From Paracyclopina nana (Eukaryota > Arthropoda > Copepoda > Cyclopoida > Cyclopettidae): 64,000 nucleotides of DNA. Where the stretch lies: positions 2,192,501-2,256,500 of the forward strand of contig JAGUCH010000007.1 in the NCBI GenBank assembly GCA_019096065.1, given 5' to 3'. Shown one piece after another: positions 33,569 to 48,500 of this stretch. Within the stretch, counting starts at the first letter, position 1. Each line of letters opens with the position of its first letter. The notes beneath the pieces were generated by a model, which was given only the letters and a program-made list of their open reading frames with translations, searched no databases and had not been told where the DNA came from. A program made the translations under genes and the position numbers.

Positions 33569-36500
33569 TTACCACTTGTTTAGCTCTTCAATATCTCCAA
33601 GTTTGAAATAGACAGAAATGATGAATAAAAGCAGAAATGTGACAAACATGCTGGGCACGAGGACCTTTTGCAACTCGTTCACTCTTGAGGCCGTCCAATA
33701 CCGAGGCTTAACCTAAAGCATATGAAGGTTATCACTTTAGTTGTTACGTTAAATATGGCGCACCAATTTTTGCGGTAAAGAGCCCACGTTGCTGTTGTGG
33801 CTCAAATTCCTGGACGTCTTCACTCCAACTTGGCTCATGGAATTGGGCCTCACCACACTGTAGGACAAGTCTTGCGCGTAGGTCATTGTCAGCTCCCTCA
33901 GCCTCATTTTGTCGATCAAAATGTGCATGGCTATGATCATCGATGTGGAGAGCATGAAGTAAAGCAACCACACATCGATGGCCTTGAAGTAAGATGTGTT
34001 GGGCAGGGATGAAGTCATGGTCGACATCAAGGAGGCCAAAACGAGAAGACAAGTGAGCGAGCCCATGAAGCGATCATTGAAGTCATCGATGTCAATCCAA
34101 AAAGTGAGGCAAGCCAAAAAGCCAAGCAAGAAACTTTGGAAAAGACTCTGAGACACGTGGTATCCATATTGCCTGGCAAAATCAACCAACACCCAAACTT
34201 CACTTCTGGTCACGTTCAATGGGCTCTTAATCATGGTCATGTTGGTGATGACAAACTCAACCAGAGTTTTTGGGCCGTCGTACAAAATGTCTCCCGGCTT
34301 CAAAACCACAGATTGAGTTGTAGCTGTGCGAATTCGAAATATCATCAGACAATGCTGATCGTCAAATGGGAAAAATCTGAGGTTGAACGTGCAATGATAT
34401 TCTGCGTAGTATCTTCTCAGGAAAAAGAGGTAATTCTCGTGTCCAAGGTAAATGCGATTCTCCCTTTCGTACTTGTCCTCCAATGGTAAGGGACTACGAT
34501 TTTTCATCACCAACAAGGCAGAGTACTCATCTTTGACGAACGATCCTGTTTTGGAGTTGGCAAAGCCAATCTCAGGAATCCAAACTCGATCTCGTTCTTT
34601 CACTGCAATCATGTTCAAGTAGATGTCATCGCGAAGGTTGAGGTAGTCAAGCCTGCGATCCCTCCAGGATATGTTCAAGCGGAGAATGGTACTGAACATC
34701 ATGTCAATGGTTTGGATTTTGTCAAAGCTGAAAATCTCCAGGGTAAGAGTGAGCTCCAGAGGCTCGGTGAACTTGGATCCTTTGATGCCTTGCTTGGGTG
34801 GCAGATCCGGTTGGTAGTCATCTGGAATGAATATTCGCCTGCAGTTCTCCTCATCTGAGCCATCAGAGCAGTCTGGTTTCAAGTCACAGCGAAGATTCAA
34901 AGGCTGACAAGTTCCATCCGAGCAAGTGAATTCTTCATCTGTGCAAGCAGTCAGAGTGAGAAATTGCTCGACTCCAGTTCCACTCGAGCACTCGTTTTCA
35001 AACAAAATCCATTTTCGCCTACCAATTGGGTATACAGACTGCAAAATTCAAAACTATGATTATTGCAATTATACTTTTTAAGGCTAGCTTACTCTAGAGT
35101 TGTCAAAAAGTTGGGCTGATATGTTGTATCGCAAGTGGAATAATTTCCACGATTGGCTGCTGATATCCTTAAATATCATTAAAAATGTTAATTTCACTAA
35201 TGCAGACGTTTATACGTATTTTGCTTCTGTTTTTACCCATTTTATGGTGGAAGTTGCCAATCCCTTAAATGATGGTTTGCTACCCTCGTGAATCTGTAGA
35301 GTGTACAACCTGTCAAATCTACTTTGAGAACAAAGACCTCTCAGCTTGAATTCCAAGATTCCCTTGTAAAAATGACACATTGTACAATAAGTCCTGATTT
35401 AAAGGTCACTTTTTAATCAATTTGTCAGAGGAAATCTGCTAGCATACCTTGGGCTCGTTTCTGAGCACAAAGAGGCTCCCCACTTGCCAAATAGCCTGTC
35501 AGTATTGGTGAATGGGTCTCTTCTTTCAGCTGAAGGACCAACTCGAAGTGGAAGGTGGAAAGCAAGGCCGGCAATGACGTGGCGGTCTTGAGCCCATTAG
35601 TGGAAGCAATCCAAAATGCGAGGACTAATGCACTTTGGCAGAGGTGACAGCTCCAGACAACAAGGTGATGAGGGAGGTGTCAATCTGTTCAATAAAGTCT
35701 AAGTTGAAAACTTTAAAGGCTTCCTTCTCGTTTGAACGGTGAAAAAGAACTGTTTATTTACGTTATTTTGAGCGCGCAGCGCAGCTGACGCTTAAGCGGG
35801 AAAATACGAAAATAAAGATAAGCATATATACACAAATCGAGGTAGACACGAATTGGCAATGTTGTCAAGGCACCAAAAGCCCCCTCCTCAAATCAGGACC
35901 TGAATTTGAGGCTTAAGCCGGCTTGTTGGCATCAGGAATGATGACATTGGCTTCAGCCTTGAGCGGCAAAGTTGCCAGGTCGATGTCTTCGTAGTGTCGA
36001 TATTTGATGAAAAATTTTTCTTGACCAGCATCGGTGAATCCATCGGGTTTGACTGACATTTTGAGGTAATAAACAACCCGGTAGGCTTGGTGATGCACTA
36101 GGCAACCAAACAAGTGCTCCTGGAGCAGCTGAGGCATCGTTTTGGCATGGTGGCTTGGAAGATGGCCTAGCCTGCCACACTGAGAGCAGCGCTTAAGCAA
36201 CATGGGGCAATTTGCAATGTTATGCCCATCTTCGAGGCACTGCGGGTATATGCAGACCTGAACAATTTCCAAGCACTTCGCAGTTGGCAGGCTGTGATCA
36301 GTTGATCCGCAGTGTGGGCACGGGTGAAGCATGCAGTTCGATTTTCTGAAAAGGACCTTAAGGATGTCGGCATAGTTAATTTGGTCCAGTGGGCCTAGAA
36401 GCTCAGTGAGCCTTAAGGCGAATTCGGGGGAGAGGCAATGATGATCCAATGGAAATTTTCTTGTGTAGCCCTCCATCATCTTCAGCACAGCTGAGCCCGA

Positions 36501-39500
36501 ATGCACAAAAACTGATGCGGCTGCAGATCGAAAGGCCGTGAAGAGCAGATCTTGCTTCAAATGAGCCCTCACAGTGCCCTGGCCATAAGGTCTCCAATTC
36601 ACATAGGTTGGTTTGGGGATCGAGCCAAACCTCGGCTTGCCTTCAGTCAAGCATAAAATGATGTGAATGAATTGGAGCGCGTTCGCCTCGTCGCTTAAGC
36701 CAACTTCGATCATGTCCTTTGTTGCCAGTGCTGACAAGATCGCCATGGACCCGTGGTGGACGACTTTGAGATGGATCTTCATGTCTTCATCCCAGTCAGC
36801 ATAAGCCTTCGAAAAATCCTTTTGATTTGGGTGGATTTTTATGTTGGCTTTTGGAGGAGCTTTTTGTTCTGGTTTTCCAGGCAAGGGTTGGCGGAATTGG
36901 AAGGTGATGACCGGCGATCCACTTTGCTCTAAATAATAGTGCAAGGAGTTTTGGATCTGGTGCGGAGCGACTTCCAATGGTGGAGGGAAGGCCAGAACCA
37001 CCAAGTTTGACAAGTCAACGAGGTTGCACGGCTTAAGCCCAATACTTTTAAGCCGGCTGTCGCCAACGATTCCAAACCCTGTCTTTACCACTTGGGGGGA
37101 GTTGATGATGTCCTCCACTGCTTTTGGGATGGCTCTTTCCACAGGTTGTCCATCTCCAGGAGAGTTGACTTGGATTAGCAATATTTTGCCCGACAGGGTG
37201 CCGAGAGACAGAGAGGTGAAACCATTAATGGGAGCTTCGGCCTGGGGGGATCTTTTATAGAGCTCGTCCGGTTTCCAGGGGGTCATGTAAAGGTCGCAGG
37301 TGCCATCTCTGTAGATCTCTCCAATGATGTCCGAGTCCTTGGCCATCTGGTTCCATTGCTCTTCCGTGGTATTTTTGGAGACAACCATTATTGGCCCATA
37401 AGGGGTGGCAAAGCACTCCAGATTGCCATTCCTCAAGGTGCGATCAAGCTTGGCTTGCTTGAGCTTGTACTGGCCGAAGATGTGATCTTGCTTGTCCAGA
37501 TTGTGGAGGTCAGTGCCAATGACTGAGTTGTCGAGTCGGAACTTGCACGGGTTGACTTTGCAGTCGCCTTCTTGGGGCATCCAGGCCATCTGGCTGACAG
37601 CTCCTTTGCCTGACTTCAAGAGGAGTTGAGCTTTCTTGCAGGTGAGGACCGTGACCTCAGAAGCGTAAGCATTCATGGCGTAGATGGCTTGTGGCATGTG
37701 GGACGTAGGCAGGGCTCCCTTGTAGGCTTCTTGAACAGTTTTTGGATTGGGGAAGCAAGCGTCCTTAAGGAGCAGAATGGCAGCATCGACATCCTCTTCT
37801 GCCAGAGCCATGAACTTCTGGATGAGCAAAGGGGCCCCCTCATTGGGAGGATGGCTTAAGCCTAGGAGAGAAATAGCTTCTTTTACCTCCTCAGGCATTC
37901 CCTTAAGGGCCGATCCTTGCAAGACGATGCGATGGAATCCACCGATGACCTTGCTCAACGCTGCGATGAGTGGGAGTGCGGCAGCCTTTTCCTCGTTGTT
38001 CCACGGCTCCATGTACTGTGGAGTCCTCAATTTGGAGACTTGAAGTCGAGCATCGGCGGTGATGACAAGGAAGAGCTCAGGATGGGAGATGGAGAGGACT
38101 GACAGTGGTGCTCCATCCCGATAGAGGCATACAAGTCTAAACAAGTCCTGGTAGATGGCCTTAATTGGTCTTAGCAAGGCCTCGCTCTTGGTGCGATGGT
38201 CTTCTGGCTGCATGATACCATAATCCATTGATGGAGCCGCAATCAGGAGTTCAGGGTTCCTGTAAAGGTCAGCAGCCTCCGCAGCAGGCATCGCCAGGAG
38301 CTCGTTGAGGAAAAGGCCCTGTTTTGCCCCTAAGGAAGCCACCATGGTCTGCCTCTCCATGGCTTGAAGATGAGTGTCTTCATCTGACTGGCTACCTGGA
38401 ATGGCATCAAAGTTGATCCCTGGAAAGATTTGTTTGAGTATGGTTAGCTTCGAAGTTTCAGGCAAGACATAGTTATTCGAGAGCAATTTTTCCAGAAGCG
38501 GGTTGGAGGCAAGGATTTTTTGCAGCAAAGGATTCGGGATGCCTCTTCCAATGAGAAGTTTGTCTCCTCGTGCATCAGCGAGCTCGGGAAGAGGCGGTTG
38601 TAGTGTTGGGATGAGCAGTTCCAATGAGCTATCAGATGACGAGGCCGACCAAGAGTCCACGACAATGCCCTCTGAGTTGTCTGGGAGAAGATGCTTTTTG
38701 TCTGTGGATGAGGGTTGTTCAGGGGCATCAAGTGAGGCCAAGGGCGGCATGGGGGTCCTGAAGATGACGTGAGGCCCTACGGAATCAGCTGAAGTTCCCG
38801 GTCGGGGTTCAGGTGAAGCCGGCTTAAGCCTACGACTTGGGGATTCAGGGAATGTAGCCGGCCTCTTTTCAGTTGACGCGGCCTGAAGCTTCGTCTCCTC
38901 TTCTTGCTCAAGGTCAACCAGGAGGACGCGTCTGAGCTTAACATTATAGGATTTTTGACCCAAACGTTTACCTGACGGGCCTGGGCGAGGTTCCTGCTCT
39001 TCTTTACGATCTTGATCGCTCATGATGACGTCGATTTTTACCGATGGAGTCAAAATTTTTAAAAGGAATACTTAAGAATTTGAATTTCCGGAAGGAGTGG
39101 CGATTTGACGAGTTTTCTTGCCCTTCTTCTTTTTCGCCGAAATGTTGATTCGGCTTAAGCCTCAAGGCGACAATTCTTCCGTTGGCAGGGGAGGACGTCG
39201 GCTTAAGCTATAGACACGGAGATGAGCTTGTTCAAGCGGCTGGTTCAATCAGGCACTCGATGAAACTTTCAAAGCCAAGCTAACTTTGAAGATGAACGGC
39301 GCGTCACGAATATTTTCGAAAACGATGTTTCTCGTTCGAGAGTAAAAACGGTAGTGTTTATTTTCCGGATTCGTTGAGATCACTACAATAAAAACTGAGA
39401 GTTTCAGCACTTAAGTGAGTAAGCTAAAATTGGCGGTAAAATTCAAATTCATAGCGGGTGGGATCTCAACTAACGCGAAGGTTTGCACTTGGTATGCTAA

Positions 39501-42500
39501 ATGTGGGAGTAAAACATGTTAGTAAAGTCTATGCACTGCTAGAGTCTTTGCACTAAGCATGAGCTTTCACTTTTGCTTTAAAGTCCTGAGGGCGACGTCA
39601 CTAATTGAGCACTTTGTTCATAGTAAGATCGGCCTTTCGTTCTTCTTAGCTTAAGCAGAGCACATTACTTCAGCACTTTTAAAAGTCTAAAATCACATAA
39701 GTTGTGGTCGAGGTGCATTTTTGCGTTGGAACCTTGTTCTGGTCGCAATGGGTCCATGCACAAAGTCTTCATCAGACCCATCCTCCTTGTCTTTGAGGAA
39801 AAGATCAGGCACTAGCTTTTTGCGGTCAAGTGGATCTTCTTGGTCTTCTGGATCAGAGTATACTTCATCAATGAAGTCGAGAGCTGCTTCGGTTTCGTCA
39901 AGCTCTTCTTGCTTAAGCATTCTTTTTTCATGAGGTACTGTTTCTCTGGCAATCCAGGGAGCTTCATCTTCTTCATCAAGGTTTGGAAGAGGGATTAAGT
40001 GTTGGATCGGTCTTTCTCGATACTTGAATTCAAGAACTGGCTTTTTCTCTCCTTTTTCCTTGATGTACTTGGTCGATGGGTATTTGACAATGACTCTTCG
40101 GATTAATCCATCAGCATTCACGAAGGTTTTGTCTACAATGCCAAGCTGCCATGAGTTTTTCTTTGCATAGATTCTTGGGTCCACCATGATGACTGGATCA
40201 CCTTGCTTAAGCGACCGAATGAAGTCTCTCCATTTAGGCATCTTTTGAATCCGGAGAAGCCATGCCTGAGACCAGAAGTGCCATAATTCTTGAAGCTTTG
40301 TTTCCAGAGTTTTGTAATGTTTGGGCAGAGTCTCCAGATCCTTGGGATTGATTGTTGGCATAAGCTCTCCCCCTGGCCCCCTCGTCAAGAAGTGGTTTGG
40401 AGTCAGGACATGGCCATCAACTACTCCAATGGGGCGACTATTCACAATGCCTTCAGCTCGCTTCGCAAATGTGGAGAAGTCTTCGTAAGACAGCACAGCT
40501 TCGCCAGAGATCTTGTACATGGCACGCTTCCAGCTCTTGACAGCTGTTTCCGCGTTCCCATTGCAGTTGGGTCCATAAGGAGGTGAGAACTTCCAATCCT
40601 TGACACCAACTTTTTGCACATCTTGACGCACTGTTGTCCAGTCTACCTGTTCCAGACTTGAAATAAGTTCTTGATGTCTTGGATTACAGAAGATTTCTTG
40701 CTTAAGCTTCTTTAGACTGGCACCATTGTCACTTCTTATTTGCTTAGGCACTCCAGTTCTGACTACCATTCTGTCGAGGGCATTCTTAAGAGCCTCAGTG
40801 TTCATTTTTGGAACCACTTCAACATGAATAGCCTTGGTGTCATGACACATAGCTATCAAAATCCAAACCTTTGTATTGGATCTGAGTAGCTTGACAGGAA
40901 AGGGTCCAGCATAGTCGATTGAAATGCGTTGGAATGGAAACATTTCTTCAGCTGAGAGCATAAAGTTGCTAGGGAGTGGTGCCATAAGCTGCCTCATCAC
41001 TTTTGCTTGAGCAATGGTGCAGAGCCAACACTTTTTGGTGAGACTTTGGAATATCGCAGCAGCTCCTCTAACATAGTATTTCTCTTGAAGATAAGACGTC
41101 ATTGTCACAGTGCCATAGCCATGTCCCATGATTTGATGAATTTCTTCGCAAACTTGCACTGACAGGCAGGATGGCACGATTAATCGTCTTCTTCCAATCC
41201 AGGTTGGTTCACCTTTATAGGTTCTACCACGCATTCTAAGTTCTCCATGATCTCCTAAGAGTATGTTCAAGGATGCGAGTCTTGACACTTTTGGCCATTT
41301 CTTGTTTCTGTATAGAAAATCAAGTTCTTCACCAAACTCTTGTTGTTGGAGGATCATAAGAAGGAAGCCTTCTGCTTTGGCTTTTTCTTCTGGAGCGAGC
41401 TGTTCGTCTGTGACAATCTGGAATCGTTGTGGTCTTTTCTTCGTGATGTCAGCTTTGGCTCTGGAGTTGTTGATGAATCTTTGAACTCTTGCCATGCATC
41501 GAACACTAACTCCAAACCTCAATTTTTCAGTGGGGATAGGTAGCTTAAGCACTCTGGATTTCTTCCATTCTTGATAGACTTGATGCGATGGTACCAGGTA
41601 ACTTGGGACTACATTTTCTCCCGCCTTGATAAAATTTATCAACGACTTTTTCTGAGCGACAGCGACTGCAGCAATGTCATCATTGGTTAGCTTAAGCTCT
41701 TCGTTTGGGTAGTTCGCAATTGGCCCAAGCAAAAATGGTGGCCCATGCTTCCATAAGGTGTCGTTGGCAAGATCTTTGGCTTTGATACCTCGCGTGGGTT
41801 TGTCACTTGGATTGGTGGATCCTTTGATGTGGCGCCAATTGTACATATTTGTCAACTCAAAGATCTCAGAGACTCGACGACTGACAAATGTTTTCCAATT
41901 TCTTGCAGGTTTCATCATCCAATCCAGCACTACTGATGAGTCTGTCCATAGATAGATGTCATCGATTTTTTCGTAAAGAGCCTTAAGGTGTACTGCCATG
42001 CGAGCCCCCACTACTGCTCCTAGCAATTCTTTTTCAGGAATTGAACGAGATTCATTTAGAGGGCAGAGCTTCATTCTTGACGTGATGAGATTGGAGTCAA
42101 TTCTTCCATCTGTGTAGTGGCACACTAGATAAGCGCAGGCAGCATAAGCAACTTCACTAGCGTCAGTAAAGATATGCAGGTATCGATGAGTAGTTGGGCC
42201 TTTACGAATTGCTCGTGGGACTTGAAACAAGTTTATGTCGTCAAGGTCTTTGACAAACTCAAACCATCTGGTGATGATCAATTTTGCATCCGGATGGTCA
42301 ATTTTGTTGAGCTCTGAGTCCCAGTTGAGCTTAAGCGTTGATTTCAAGGCACATGTTGCTTGGATGAGAATTTTACCATACAAGATGACAGGAGTGACAA
42401 GTCCAAGAATATCAAAAAGTCTTGGAGTGTACTTTGTCAGGAGCCTTAAGGTGATTGGATGGCCGATGAATGGATCATAGGGAGGTTTCTGGAAGACAAT

Positions 42501-45500
42501 GGTATCATTGCTTTGGTCGATCCACATGCCAAGAGCTTTGGTTGTGTCGACATCATCATCTTTGACTTGATATTTCGATGCTCGCCATTCCGGAAGGATG
42601 TGGCTTAAGCCTTCTGGATTTGAGCAGGTCCATTTTCTTAAGGGCAAATTGGCATCGGTCATGATCTGGATGAGATCCTCAGAAACTTGTTTAAACTCGT
42701 CAATGCTCTCGACTGAAGCGATCAAGTCGTCAACATATAGGCATTTTTTGATGAGTTCGTATGCTCTGGGCTTTGACTCTTGGTATTTGGCAGCATGGTG
42801 TTGCAAGGCATAGAGTGCCATACATGGAGCAGCAGTGGTGCCAAACGGAACTGAGTTAAACTCATAAAAGCCATCGTCCCATGCAAAGCGATGAAATCTT
42901 CGATCTTCAACTGCGAGCTTGAATCTGAGATACATTTTCGAGATGTCACACGTGAAGCAAATGGGCTTTTCTCTTGCCATGAGAATGATGTCATAGCATT
43001 CGGTTTGGAGCTTAGGCCCAGGAAGCAAGGCATCGTTGAGTGATTTTCCATTTCTTGATTTTCGGGTGCCATCAAATACGATCCGGATTGGCATTGACGG
43101 TTTGTCTAGCCTAGTGACAAGCAACCAATTAAGGAACCAGCCCAGTGTGAGGTGTTCACCAGGATCTAATTTGCGGATGAATCCTAGCTTAAGCCATTCG
43201 CCGATCTCTTCGCAAGCCTTGTGGTATGATGACATGCTTTTAGACTTCAATCGGGAGATAAGGCCGAGCGTATCCTTAAGGACTTCACTGAAATTGTTAG
43301 TGAAGTTTGGCTCATTGAGGTTCCATAGACTGTTGACCTCATAGTCACCATTTGGAAGTTGCTTGATTTTGCTCAGTATGTCCAGTGCCCTCTGCTCATT
43401 GACACTCAGTGGCTTAGGATGCTTAAGCGATGAGTAGTCTTCAAGTTCATAGAGAAGCTTGAGAGCTGCATATGGAGGGGCATTCGGGCAGCATTCTTGA
43501 GGATATTCTTCTCCAACAAGTTCTGGTACAATTGGCTCTTCTCCCGCCATGGCAACAACTGTTGAAACATTGAATGAAGTGTTGTTTGTTTCAGCGTAGT
43601 GGATCACTGGGCCAAGGCGAGTAATTTGCAGCACTGGATCAGTTGGCAGGTCGCCGACAATTGTCTTAAGACCACACATTAAGTTGAAGTTGTCTTGGCC
43701 GAGGAGAAGTTCCGGAGCATTCGGAGCCAATTCTGGAAAGTTCACATTCTTCAAGTGTTCGAAGTGTTGCTTAAGCTTCTTGATGGGAGGCAGTTGAAGT
43801 GTGGGTTGAAGAGATGGTAGAGTATGCACATTTAACTGATGAATTTCACTGGTCTCTGGAAGGGAAGACTTTACATTCAAAAGAACATGTTTACTAGGCA
43901 TATTAGCTTGAGAACCCACAAATACCAAGTTTTTTGTACTTTGCAAACCTTCTAGCTTAAGCTCACGGCTGAGTGACTCTGTGATTAGGGTCAGTTCACT
44001 GCCCGTATCTAAAAAACAATTGACCAATTTGGTCTGACTAGCATCATTAGGGTTACTGACATAAACAGGTAATATAGGTAAAAGCACATTATGACGCGGA
44101 CTTAATACACGCTTAAGCTCAAATGATAAAATAGAATTCACAATAGACGCATGATTTTTCTTCTTTTTCGTTGTAGATGCCGTGGAGATGTTGTGGCCTT
44201 CGGTCGATGAGGTGGCTGCTCTAGCTTCAGCTTCAAGTCTTATACGTTTATTTATACTGACTTGAATGCTGTTGACTAGTTTTTTGCAGCAGATGAGAGC
44301 TGGCCAGAATTGGACGTCGATGAGACCTCAGTCTTGACTGATGACACTGCCGATGATTTCGAGTCTGTTAGCACTTTCACAGATTTTGCAAGTTCCTCGA
44401 GAACTTGCCGGCTTTTAGCCATTTCTTCTTTCTGGGCCTTAAGGTAGAGAAGCAGGGTGTCGTCAGATGAAGTTGCTGCAACGGTGGAGCCAGACTTGTC
44501 TGAGCTCTTAAGAGGTGCCTTCGCAGTGAACGGTGTTGGCATAAAGTCAGCTGAAGAATGGAGCCATGAATTGTGTTTGTCAGATTTGCATTTTGAGCAG
44601 ACCAGGGTAGTCTTGCACTTGCGCAGATTGTGCTGCCCCCTCAAGCACCTGAAGCAAGCATGTGCTCCCTTGCAAAGTTTAAACTTGCCTTGAGCGTCAG
44701 CATCCTTGAACAATTGGCATTCAGGGATGAAATGGGACTGCTGGCAGAGAGGGCATTCCAGGAAGGTTTTTGACTCATCCTGAGCAACTCTGACACTGGC
44801 AATGGTGAATTCTTCTTCACTGGACACGAACGTTGGCTCACATTCAGCTCCTTGGAGCTGCTCGATGACTGACATGACAGACTTGCCATAAGAATAATTG
44901 CCACCTTTGGCATAAAATGGAGGTTTGGTGGTAGCTGGCTTAAGCCCCGTCTGCGGCGCAGAGGTTTTGGTGGCATCAGCAGCTTTGGCCATTTGGTGGG
45001 AATAATGATGCTGCATTTCAGAGCTAGCCCACTCGTTGAAGAGCTCCAGTGTGAAGGCATGAGTTCTTCGGCTTGTCAAAAAGGTATTGACGAAAGGACG
45101 GGTGGAGGGCACAAAAGTGATGTTTTGAATCACCAAGGCTGAGAATGCAGTCTTTTCAAAGTCTGACATCTTTTCTGGGGCAGTTTCTTCCAGTTGGAAT
45201 ATAAATTCCGAGATGTGGTCCCTGACACTTTGTATCGTCTCTTTCTTCGTCATGTCAACTGGAGGCATGTTTTGGAGCTTTTTGACTGCGTAATTGAGTA
45301 GTCTTTGACGATCACCAAATTCCTCATCTAGTTCCTTAAGGGCTTGCAAGTAGCCTGCTTTGGTGTGAGGCTTGAACTGGACAAAGCGATGGGCGTGTCC
45401 TCCCTTCGTGGCTTGATTGAGGCGAATAATCTTTTCCTGCAGCGACATGTCAGCATCCTTATGGACAAAGTTTTTGAATGCGACTCGAAAGTGGTAATAC

Positions 45501-48500
45501 TGCATGAGATCTTCACCATCGAATGGAGGGACCTTTAAAGGATCAAATTTGATGGCTCTCTTCTTTCGAACTGAGGCAGAGTTGTTCGAGCCTGATCCAT
45601 AAGCTGGGGACTCATTGCTGCGACTTCTGGAGTGTCTTTCATCTTCTTCAGACGAGCTTGTGTCCCAAAACGGCTTCTTTTTTCTGTCATCGCCACCAGA
45701 AGACTTTTTCTTCTTGCCCTTTTTGGAACCGTCATCGCTGCTGCTGCCATCTGATGGATCATCCGGATTTGGGTCTCCAGCATTGGGGACATGTTGGCCA
45801 AAAGAGTGGGCCGTTGAAGGGCAACGTTTAAACGAATCCGTGGTCTTGTCATAGACAAGTTTGACTCCGTCTCTGGTATAGACAACTTCTTGGGCAGGCG
45901 TGTAAGTCTGGACTTTCATTGTCTTGTTCAGCATTTTTTCGTTGACCAGTCCCTTAAGGTGGCTCCTAGTAGCATTTTGTTGCAATGTCAGGATTTCATA
46001 GGCTCTTCGCGCAGTCTCCAAAAGGTAATTGTAGTTGGCATCGTGAGTATCAAATTCCTTGGCAGCCCGATTGTCCACGTCAAGCAACTCAGCCCACCTC
46101 TGCTCATAGGTGACTAAAAGTGAGCTTAAAGTTGCCATGCTCAACGATAGCTTTTCTGCATCAGCCTGACTGTTGATGTCAACTTGCAGTTGTGCAGCTT
46201 GGAGCTTAAGCCGATCCTTGAGAGAAATGAGGGCAATTTCTTCAGGAGAGACAGTCCTTTTCGACTTGGTTGATGCATCCTTAAGGCCAATGATAGCTGG
46301 GTCGTCGGCGCTGACAGGGGCATAAGAGAGGCTCTGCTGCTTGTTGCTGGGCCCTGGAGTAGCTCCCGCCGTGCTTAAGCCGCCTGGAGTGCCAAGTTGA
46401 GTGGTGCCATTTGGATCAACATTGGTTGAAGGCCTTCGTGGAGTGGCAGCGGCCTTGGATTTTCGGGCTTCCTTGGCAGTTTGGCGAGCAAATTCCGAGG
46501 CAAATTCCTCACCATCAGTGTCGCTGAAGTCGAAGTTAAGATGCCGGTCAAGTTCTTCGTCGTCGATGGTGACTTTGTTGGCTACTTCGCGACCTTTGAT
46601 GATGCCCTTGAGCTTGTCCTTAAGGCCTTGCAATGCATCTCTCGCTCCATTTGCTTTTTGAGGCATGACAGCTCCAACAGGATTGCCAGCTGCGTCATAA
46701 GCTGCAACATACTTTGGATATGCATCGGTGAGGGCGGCTTGGGCGGCCTCCACAACGCTGAGCATGTGCTTAAGCGTTTCAATTGACTCTGGAGCATCAA
46801 ATGACCTGATCCTCTTGCGATAGTCTCGGCAAGCAACCATGGCCTTCTCGAGTACTTTGATGAGGATATCTCTTGCTTCTATGGCTGCGTTTTGCTTAAG
46901 CTGCCGGTCAGATTCCTTGGTCTTCTTTGATGAAGACTTGGAAGTTGGCTTGTCTCCTCCCAGGATGGTAACGCCACTGTCAGTGGTACCTGTTCCACTA
47001 GACGAATTGGCAGTGGGGGGTCCAGATTGGTTGGATGGATTGCTGCTGGACTGCTCAGCATTTCCATCTAAATTGAGCTGGGGATTTTGATCCGCCATGC
47101 TTAAGCTGGGAGAAGTCTCCGGGTGAAAGACGTCTTCAAGGTTGGCCCCCTCGTGATGTAGCTGCTCCGAGCTCGCACTGACTAGCGAGTCATCCGGTTG
47201 GGCAGCTATGGCAAGGTAGTCTTGAAAGTTGCGTCTTGGCAAGGTGTTGGGGCTTGAGTGTCTGGTCAAGTCCACAGTGGCCGGAGAGACTTCCCAGTCT
47301 AATGATGAGACGAGCTGCTGCTCATTCAGAGACCGAAGCGGGCGATGTCGAGGCTTAAGCCACTGCTCGACTCTTCTAAATGGAGTTGACGATTCTGACT
47401 GGACATGTGGTGGCAATCCTCTAACCCTGAGGCTCTTGCGGAGGCCGGTAGTTGGAGTCTCAGGCTCTTCATTGGACATGGAGGATTGCTAGTCATGAAT
47501 GAGTCAACAAAGTGCACTTAAGTGTCATTGCACTTGCACTAGAATGAAAGGGCAGAATTAAATAGACTAGATTTCCAGTGGGGTACTTGGAGTTATTTGA
47601 GTCCTAGTCTCTGGGAAGTTGATTCTGCCCCACGTTGGGCGCCAGTTTGGTGAATGGGTCTCTTCTTTCAGCTGAAGGACCAACTCGAAGTGGAAGGTGG
47701 AAAGCAAGGCCGGCAATGACGTGGCGGTCTTGAGCCCATTAGTGGAAGCAATCCAAAATGCGAGGACTAATGCACTTTGGCAGAGGTGACAGCTCCAGAC
47801 AACAAGGTGATGAGGGAGGTGTCAATCTGTTCAATAAAGTCTAAGTTGAAAACTTTAAAGGCTTCCTTCTCGTTTGAACGGTGAAAAAGAACTGTTTATT
47901 TACGTTATTTTGAGCGCGCAGCGCAGCTGACGCTTAAGCGGGAAAATACGAAAATAAAGATAAGCATATATACACAAATCGAGGTAGACACGAATTGGCA
48001 ATGTTGTCAAGGCACCAAGTATCTGCTCCAGAATGCAAGAAAGCACAATTGTCATCACCAAAGCCCTCACCATTCAAAAAGTTTGAGTACTCCAGAGGCT
48101 TTTGGGTGACCTCATTCAACCACTTGTTGTCTTTGGGCTCAATGCCAAGCCAAACTGTTTTGCCTGATTGCATTGATGCTTCGCAAACATTGTAGTATTT
48201 GTAAGCAATATTAGTAAGAACTGTGTTTTCCTCAGGACTTTCAGGCACGGACAAGTGTCCACCAAAGCTGGCGCACAAGTTGGCGGCCTCCTTGAGATTT
48301 CTCCTTTCAGGAAAAACGGCATCCAAAGTAGTTGGCAATTCGTGGCAAAAAGACTTGGTCTCAAAGTATTCCTTTTCAACATTGTTCAGCTCCCAAGGCT
48401 CATCAATCCAAGCCAAAATGTCACCCGCTCCCAATCCTAATTTGAAATTGTAGTTAGAATGGGTTGAAATGGAAAAATTGACTTTTTACTCTTGCAATAG

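Follow-up and report, generated by a model that had tools for sequence, protein, structure and literature searches.

Why should a single six-base palindrome recur dozens of times in one retrotransposon, in coding and non-coding sequence alike? The question is raised by a 64,000-nucleotide stretch of the genome of the copepod Paracyclopina nana (assembly GCA_019096065.1, contig JAGUCH010000007.1, positions 2,192,501 to 2,256,500), here called the window, in which a BEL/Pao retrotransposon with long terminal repeats (LTRs) occupies positions 35506-48017, its coding strand being the minus strand. By exact count the element contains 49 copies of CTTAAG and the other 51.5 kb of the window contain 10, a density from which 2.4 copies would be expected in the element. 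A sequence-only reading of the window had estimated about 49 and about 8, so that its first number was exact and its second slightly low, the scarcity outside the element standing. The next most frequent palindromic hexamer in the element is CAGCTG with 11 copies, and equal enrichment of other hexamers is therefore rejected. Forty of the copies are coding, 32 of them in-frame Leu-Lys codon pairs and eight in another frame, and nine lie beyond or at the edges of the open reading frames (ORFs) in 1.7 kb, both LTR copies included. Synonymous codon shuffles of the ORFs produced a mean of 8.0 CTTAAG (standard deviation 2.5, maximum 18 in 1000 shuffles) versus the actual 40, which rejects codon bias as the cause; the earlier reading had called codon bias insufficient, and the shuffle and hexamer counts by which it proposed to check itself left the excess intact. 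Of the 50 Leu-Lys pairs, 32 are spelled CTTAAG, and the pattern shows that a nucleic-acid code sets part of the synonymous choice in these elements, and perhaps of the amino-acid choice. Spacing of the sites is somewhat more even than random (coefficient of variation 0.79 versus 0.97), with 5.9% of random sets equally even. The periodicity test found little: among seven periods tried only 3 was slightly raised (R 0.27), by no more than the codon frame predicts, and there was no helical or nucleosomal periodicity at those periods.

The bases that surround CTTAAG vary in concert. Palindromes of at least 8 bp are formed by 47 of the 49 sites, and 21 of these 47 reach 10 bp; the contexts GCTTAAGC and CCTTAAGG account for 30 and 12 sites, the very numbers from which a preference for an 8-bp palindrome had been read. 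Among 48 sites (the second LTR copy being dropped), the first flanking bases are complementary at 46, compared to 21.3 expected by permutation, and all four types of pair occur (29 G-C, 12 C-G, 3 T-A and 2 A-T). The second flank is complementary at 21 of 48 sites (11.8 expected) and the third at 5 of 48 (11.4 expected). Complementarity at 46 of 48 sites in all pair types implies that the half-sites vary yet must match each other. An ordinary palindromic site of a homodimeric protein, which predicts independent half-sites, is contradicted by the same comparison.

The CTTAAG word is a single dialect within a broader system, in which each clade of elements combines a fixed short core with variable complementary arms. 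A genome search with pol scored at least 59 BEL/Pao matches, from which 30 loci (L005 and following) were extracted. The nearest relatives, L005-L011, show CTTAAG enrichment (21 down to 5 copies in each locus of about 5 kb), as do pieces that carry gag and the spacer, L038-L044 (6 to 8 per 3.2 kb); L012-L034 have 0 to 2 copies per locus. Its first flank is complementary at 28 of 29 sites in L006, 37 of 37 in L007, 36 of 38 in L008, 23 of 23 in L009, 13 of 15 in L010, 14 of 14 in L011 and 24 of 26 in the gag-spacer pieces, and the covariation holds in all seven groups of CTTAAG-enriched relatives tested (each P<0.001); only identical local contexts were removed, and copies share sites by descent, so that these lineages are not fully independent. 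In L009, L010 and L011 most sites are 10-bp palindromes, the second flank being complementary at 20 of 23, 12 of 15 and 14 of 14. When loci were scanned, over loop sizes of 3 to 8, for cores with three complementary pairs around them, a four-base core ranked first in every scanned locus of L005-L012 and L014-L017: generally TTAA in L005-L012, with TTAT in L011 and TTAC in L012, and CTAC in L014-L017 (L013 and L022, near copies of scanned loci, were excluded from most lineage tests). The eight loci scanned among L018-L025 and L032 likewise have a four-base core on top, one that starts with G and ends with C (GTGC, GTAC, GTTC, GATC), each locus by itself giving a weak signal (best P per locus 3e-4 to 3e-7). 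L033 and L034 have the core GCANTGC, with complementary arms at 18 of 19 and 17 of 19 sites, by consensus patterns picked after inspection of the data. The cores by clade are thus TTAA, [AT]TA[AT], TTAC, CTAC, GNNC and GCANTGC, and some of them, CTAC and TTAC, are non-palindromic. Site density in the lineages measured ranges from 2.3 to 4.8 per kb, by somewhat different arm criteria.

Clade specificity is seen most directly when each word is counted in every group. Arms flank 27 of 72 TTAA cores in the window element, 23 of 51 TTAC cores in L012 with its 3' piece, 28 of 74 CTAC cores in L014-L017, and 19 of 22 GCANTGC in the L033 type. When eight tetranucleotide words are tabulated against ten element groups and the window's host DNA, the table is nearly diagonal; the off-diagonal signals are smaller and belong to neighbouring words (TTAT/ATAA 6 of 57 in the window element, CTAC/GTAG 8 of 59 in L012, TTAC/GTAA 9 of 92 in the CTAC clade), and the window host DNA has no clear word. 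The comparison with relatives and host for which the earlier reading had called upholds CTTAAG enrichment in the nearest relatives and the gag-spacer pieces only. Its excess, its 8-bp preference and its codon argument all stand; it was incomplete in taking for the whole what is one clade's version. In L012, TTAC cores with A or T on both sides have complementary flanks in 30 of 31 cases, compared to 15.5 expected, so composition does not account for the covariation. In the trees of gag (20 loci, one deep node having a support of 0.33) and of pol (21 loci), neither of which includes the L033 type, the loci of each word type fall into a single group. As a separate observation, the sense strand of the window element has CTTATG 14 times, nine of them with complementary first flanks, which gives this clade a second word, one with a strand bias. 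Also apart from these results, L038-L043 have a gag 81-84% identical to that of the window element and a CTTAAG-rich spacer, without pol or ORF3 in the fetched stretch, and are possibly non-autonomous elements that keep the word.

How the words change can be followed by aligning the codons of the window element with those of L007, L008 and L009. Between aligned coding pieces of 53-67% identity, L008 shares 12 of the 33 window sites that can be aligned and L009 shares 9 of 32; sites turn over. Shared cores always keep complementary flanks, never broken ones, and a double change from G-C to C-G was found once versus L008 and once versus L009, possibly as one event. Sites that are not shared nearly all differ in the core itself, TTAA being kept in two cases. 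These data bear on a purely mutational origin, in which strand switching or quasi-palindrome correction during copying would make the surroundings of a core complementary. Free arms with Watson-Crick-only pairing would be its natural product, and the total number of TTAA in the ORFs of the window element is near expectation (59 versus 49.4). Copying errors would leave unexplained why sites are lost mostly through the core, why no shared core has broken flanks, why cores differ by clade, and why the other palindromic hexamers of the window element show so little of the effect (first flank complementary in 63 of 163, of which 11 come from TTTAAA and ATTAAT); the mutational account is quite improbable. 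TTAA outside palindromes is scarce in the same ORFs (13 versus 44.5), a scarcity that is overstated because the shuffles are inflated by the codons of the sites themselves; a weaker scarcity is seen in L012 as well (14 versus 24.8).

Whether the arms pair as RNA or as DNA can be judged from the pairs that they admit. G.U pairs are normally accepted in RNA helices. When the remaining pair of each site was scored given that the other arm pairs were Watson-Crick, the excess above chance over eight lineage groups was 511 for Watson-Crick pairs, 3.6 for G.U and 2.2 for A.C; the rule is Watson-Crick only. The predicted probability of a sense-strand RNA hairpin in the window element is 0.15 for native sites versus 0.31 for sites planted elsewhere, which gain chance stem extension. 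Native values are also below planted controls in L008, L009 and, slightly, the GNNC clade, and exceed them in none of the eight sets, L012 and the CTAC clade included. There is no tendency to longer stems. The lack of a G.U excess, together with native contexts that lower predicted hairpins in several groups, disfavours an RNA stem-loop. The reverse complements of cores are enriched too (GTAG 9 of 33, GTAA 8 of 28), and the armed cores of the L033 type comprise 11 AAT and 8 ATT, and 6 ATG and 5 CAT; these, the Watson-Crick-only rule and the hairpin results speak for DNA.

The same measurements decide most of what can be said of RNA packaging, in which stem-loops with a clade-specific loop (UUAA, UUAC, CUAC, GNNC or ANU) would be bound by Gag as genomic RNA is packaged. 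In MS2, picornaviruses and hepatitis B virus, dispersed packaging signals present many recognition cores in stem-loops of varying sequence (PMC6281560), and many scattered sites with a common core in variable surroundings are likewise found here, throughout the transcript and with a preference for the sense strand and for a 3' A. Unlike those signals, the present sites, known from sequence, do not tolerate G.U (3.6 versus 511), lie in native contexts that do not favour the RNA hairpin (lower than planted in the window element, L008, L009 and slightly the GNNC clade, without gain in L012 and the CTAC clade), show no trend to longer stems and have the core enriched in both orientations. Packaging is for these reasons considered unlikely, if still deserving of some weight. 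Of the roles suggested by the sequence-only reading, RNA packaging is disfavoured by the missing G.U excess and a binding site remains the best guess.

Our preferred interpretation, to which we give a little less than an even chance, is that the sites are clade-specific words of self-recognition, probably on the element's own DNA, for a reader that the element encodes. Each word would be a clade-fixed short core with an arm of 2-4 bp, largely free but complementary, spread over the whole element, and a protein made by the element would read the words and treat its own nucleic acid as self. Because the pairing rule is DNA-like and not RNA-like, the reader is thought to act on DNA, most likely single-stranded or nascent complementary DNA (cDNA) inside the particle, folded as a DNA hairpin or presented as a two-fold symmetric site; integrated DNA would be the second choice of substrate. 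In its wider form, the proposal is that co-resident BEL/Pao clades each write their own word (core and obligatory complementary arms), which an element protein would read on cDNA or on integrated DNA, so that families are kept separate by an orthogonal addressing code that evolves by change of core; this form is the more speculative, and we hold it only tentatively.

Several observations weigh against self-recognition on DNA. The reader itself, the DNA form on which it would act and the step served are inferred. The clade L026-L031 has no clear word, which implies that the function is dispensable there or met otherwise. (A weak sign of a five-base core, GCATT or ACATC/GATGT, was noticed in L028, L030, L031 and L066, a piece that like L063 to L065 may extend past the element ends; its best P of 2e-5 in 13315 tests makes it suggestive only.) Duplex DNA predicts no strand preference, and yet the sense strand of the window element has 14 CTTATG versus one copy of the reverse complement, CATAAG; arms are commoner around cores in sense orientation than around those in the reverse-complement orientation (odds ratio 1.61, p 0.024); and A is favoured just 3' of the arms in the window element (z 2.4), L008 (2.1), L009/10 (3.0) and the GNNC clade (3.4), with no such preference in L011, L012 and the CTAC clade (z -0.2, -1.5 and 0.7). 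The share of GC among arm pairs is 0.72-0.84 in the window element, L008, L009 and L023, compared to 0.42-0.44 by chance (the fixed C-G of CTTAAG being included), and lower in L011 (0.65); L012 and the CTAC clade lack this enrichment. The low-hairpin trend is found on the reverse strand as well, in the window element, L008, L009 and L012, so that low hairpin probability is not by itself a sign of selection. Strand preference and the Watson-Crick-only rule might be reconciled if the words were read on single-stranded cDNA. Finally, no DNA-binding protein known to us requires its two half-sites to match while leaving their letters free; if the reader acts on DNA, such recognition is not known to match any described protein.

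Two other kinds of reader may be compared with an element protein that marks self. A host factor would at least have every clade available to it in one host; each clade of that one genome has its own word, and the window host DNA carries no comparable signal, which leaves a host factor with hardly any likelihood. A protein that the element encodes to counter silencing or act on the chromatin of integrated copies would resemble VANC of Arabidopsis VANDAL transposons, whose motifs (PMC5735166) are short, accumulated in one family, different between related families, located in non-coding tandem repeats and served by a known reader. The precedent, the DNA-like Watson-Crick-only rule and the concentration of each word in its own transposon family (among the lineages fetched and the window host DNA) agree with such a protein. 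In contrast to the VANC motifs, the present sites lie mainly in ORFs (40 of 49), no tandem arrays were found (the only direct repeat of at least 30 nt in the window element is the LTR pair), the reader is conjectural, and the covarying arms are left unexplained; anti-silencing is accordingly rated as improbable.

Which element protein might be the reader is constrained in part by the distribution of ORF3. Gag and Pol are the candidates, and ORF3 would be less likely; the gag and pol trees both fit the word types, so neither is singled out. ORF3 (1046 amino acids in the window element, of a family of roughly 1000) has no Pfam match above cut-off. Zinc-knuckle-like Cys/His clusters lie near its C-terminus, with Cys and His positions invariant in six copies, and a profile search against solved structures gave three weak matches to Gag or nucleocapsid chains (E-values 2.7-4.9). 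Residues of about 620-690 may, by eye, bear some likeness to RNase D/WRN-type exonucleases. A predicted structure of part of ORF3 was useless (mean pLDDT, the model's confidence score, 31.8). A protein search with ORF3 returned nothing at an E-value of 0.001 among 7992 candidates scored; the search with pol returned 69 matches, the best 28% identical, and in viral contigs one stretch matched a pattern and none was confirmed. ORF3 evolves faster than pol (60% versus 91% identity in the L007 copy). Of the 59 pol matches, 35 have an ORF3 match on the same strand no more than 8 kb downstream; L014-L016, L019, L024 and L025 are among them. Within the limits of search sensitivity, none was found within 8 kb downstream of L018, L020-L023, L032, L033 and L034, all of which have words, nor any ORF3 in the 3' pieces of L017 and L018, and L030 is the reverse case, with ORF3 and no clear word; this pattern weighs against ORF3 as the reader. 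A further observation concerns L036, a copy of L006, whose pol is 97% identical to that of the window element: its only ORF3 match is 59 amino acids at 46%, the ORF3 search being empty there, and ORF3 has been lost, cut or replaced in this copy.

Short self-marking words have precedents of other kinds. Bacterial Chi and DNA uptake sequences are short words that mark self across a genome; they are fixed, without covarying arms, and of far lower density than the words described here. Retroviral dimerization initiation palindromes resemble these words as self-complementary sequences in a retroelement and act by RNA pairing at one or a few leader sites, compared to about 50 sites everywhere here. 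Dispersed packaging signals, VANC-type motifs and dimer sites all differ from the words in one or more of the features tested, and the words are therefore filed under no known system, though the system may work like dispersed packaging signals or VANC-type motifs. Among the papers listed in the literature searches none reported such words, as far as titles and abstract openings go. It has long been asked how co-resident retrotransposons distinguish their own nucleic acid from relatives' and the host's, and because one genome holds mutually distinct, countable words with strong covariation, each candidate reader can be tested on its own versus foreign words.

The identity of the window element as BEL/Pao rests on Peptidase_A17, RVT_1, DUF5641 and DUF1759, all above curated cut-off, and on LTRs with a short target duplication. 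Its 3' LTR (35506-35875, minus strand, TGGTG...CACCA) is identical to its 5' LTR (47648-48017, minus strand); the exact repeat is 372 nt (35505-35876 and 47647-48018), or 370 nt when bounded by the 5-bp duplication AGTAT, read by eye at both ends. Paired LTRs are 99.5-100% identical in the five copies in which they could be paired, which indicates recent insertions, as the identical LTRs suggest for the window element; no LTR pair was found in the fetched pieces of L006 and L010. Target duplications of 5 bp were read by eye in four relatives, and the five sequences (AGTAT, AATGC, GAAAT, CCCCC, ACATG) reject an integrase target that resembles the internal word.

Gag, pol and ORF3 are all open and, like the spacer, the leader and the LTRs, contain CTTAAG where the sequence-only reading had placed it. 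ORF1 (gag with DUF1759; 44276-47479, minus strand) has 13 sites, of which 44507-44512, 44939-44944 and 47354-47359 are 10-bp palindromes and 44438-44443, 45335-45340, 45953-45958, 46205-46210, 46280-46285, 46374-46379, 46619-46624, 46769-46774, 46895-46900 and 47100-47105 are 8-bp palindromes. ORF2 (pol with Peptidase_A17, RVT_1 and DUF5641; 39693-44141, minus strand) has 18, comprising 10-bp palindromes at 39912-39917, 41691-41696, 42604-42609, 43275-43280, 43665-43670 and 43956-43961, 8-bp palindromes at 40206-40211, 40701-40706, 40785-40790, 41544-41549, 41982-41987, 42330-42335, 42445-42450, 43188-43193, 43422-43427, 43770-43775 and 44112-44117, and a site of 6 bp only, with non-complementary flanks, at 42637-42642. 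ORF3 (35913-39053, minus strand) has nine, the 10-bp palindromes 36412-36417, 37032-37037, 37764-37769, 37855-37860, 37902-37907 and 38823-38828 and the 8-bp palindromes 36192-36197, 36357-36362 and 36694-36699, with another 10-bp palindrome at its end (35912-35917). The non-coding spacer (39054-39692, minus strand), to which similar DNA exists in pieces with gag and without pol, has five: 10-bp palindromes at 39154-39159 and, with an A-T flank, 39410-39415, 8-bp palindromes at 39202-39207 and 39650-39655, and 39071-39076 of 6 bp only with non-complementary flanks. The leader site (47517-47522, A-T flank), the site in the 3' LTR (35791-35796) and its copy in the 5' LTR (47933-47938) are 10-bp palindromes.

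The element is flanked on the same strand by an ORF with LDL-receptor A and neurotransmitter-gated channel domains (33749-35044, minus strand) and an ORF with a C-type lectin domain (47934-48434, minus strand), and may have inserted within one gene. Elsewhere in the assembly, two of six contig ends examined have TTAGG/CCTAA repeats, the arthropod type; contig C1 begins and contig C2 ends in long CTGGC-type satellite (L057, L060), their other ends having the TTAGG-type repeats.

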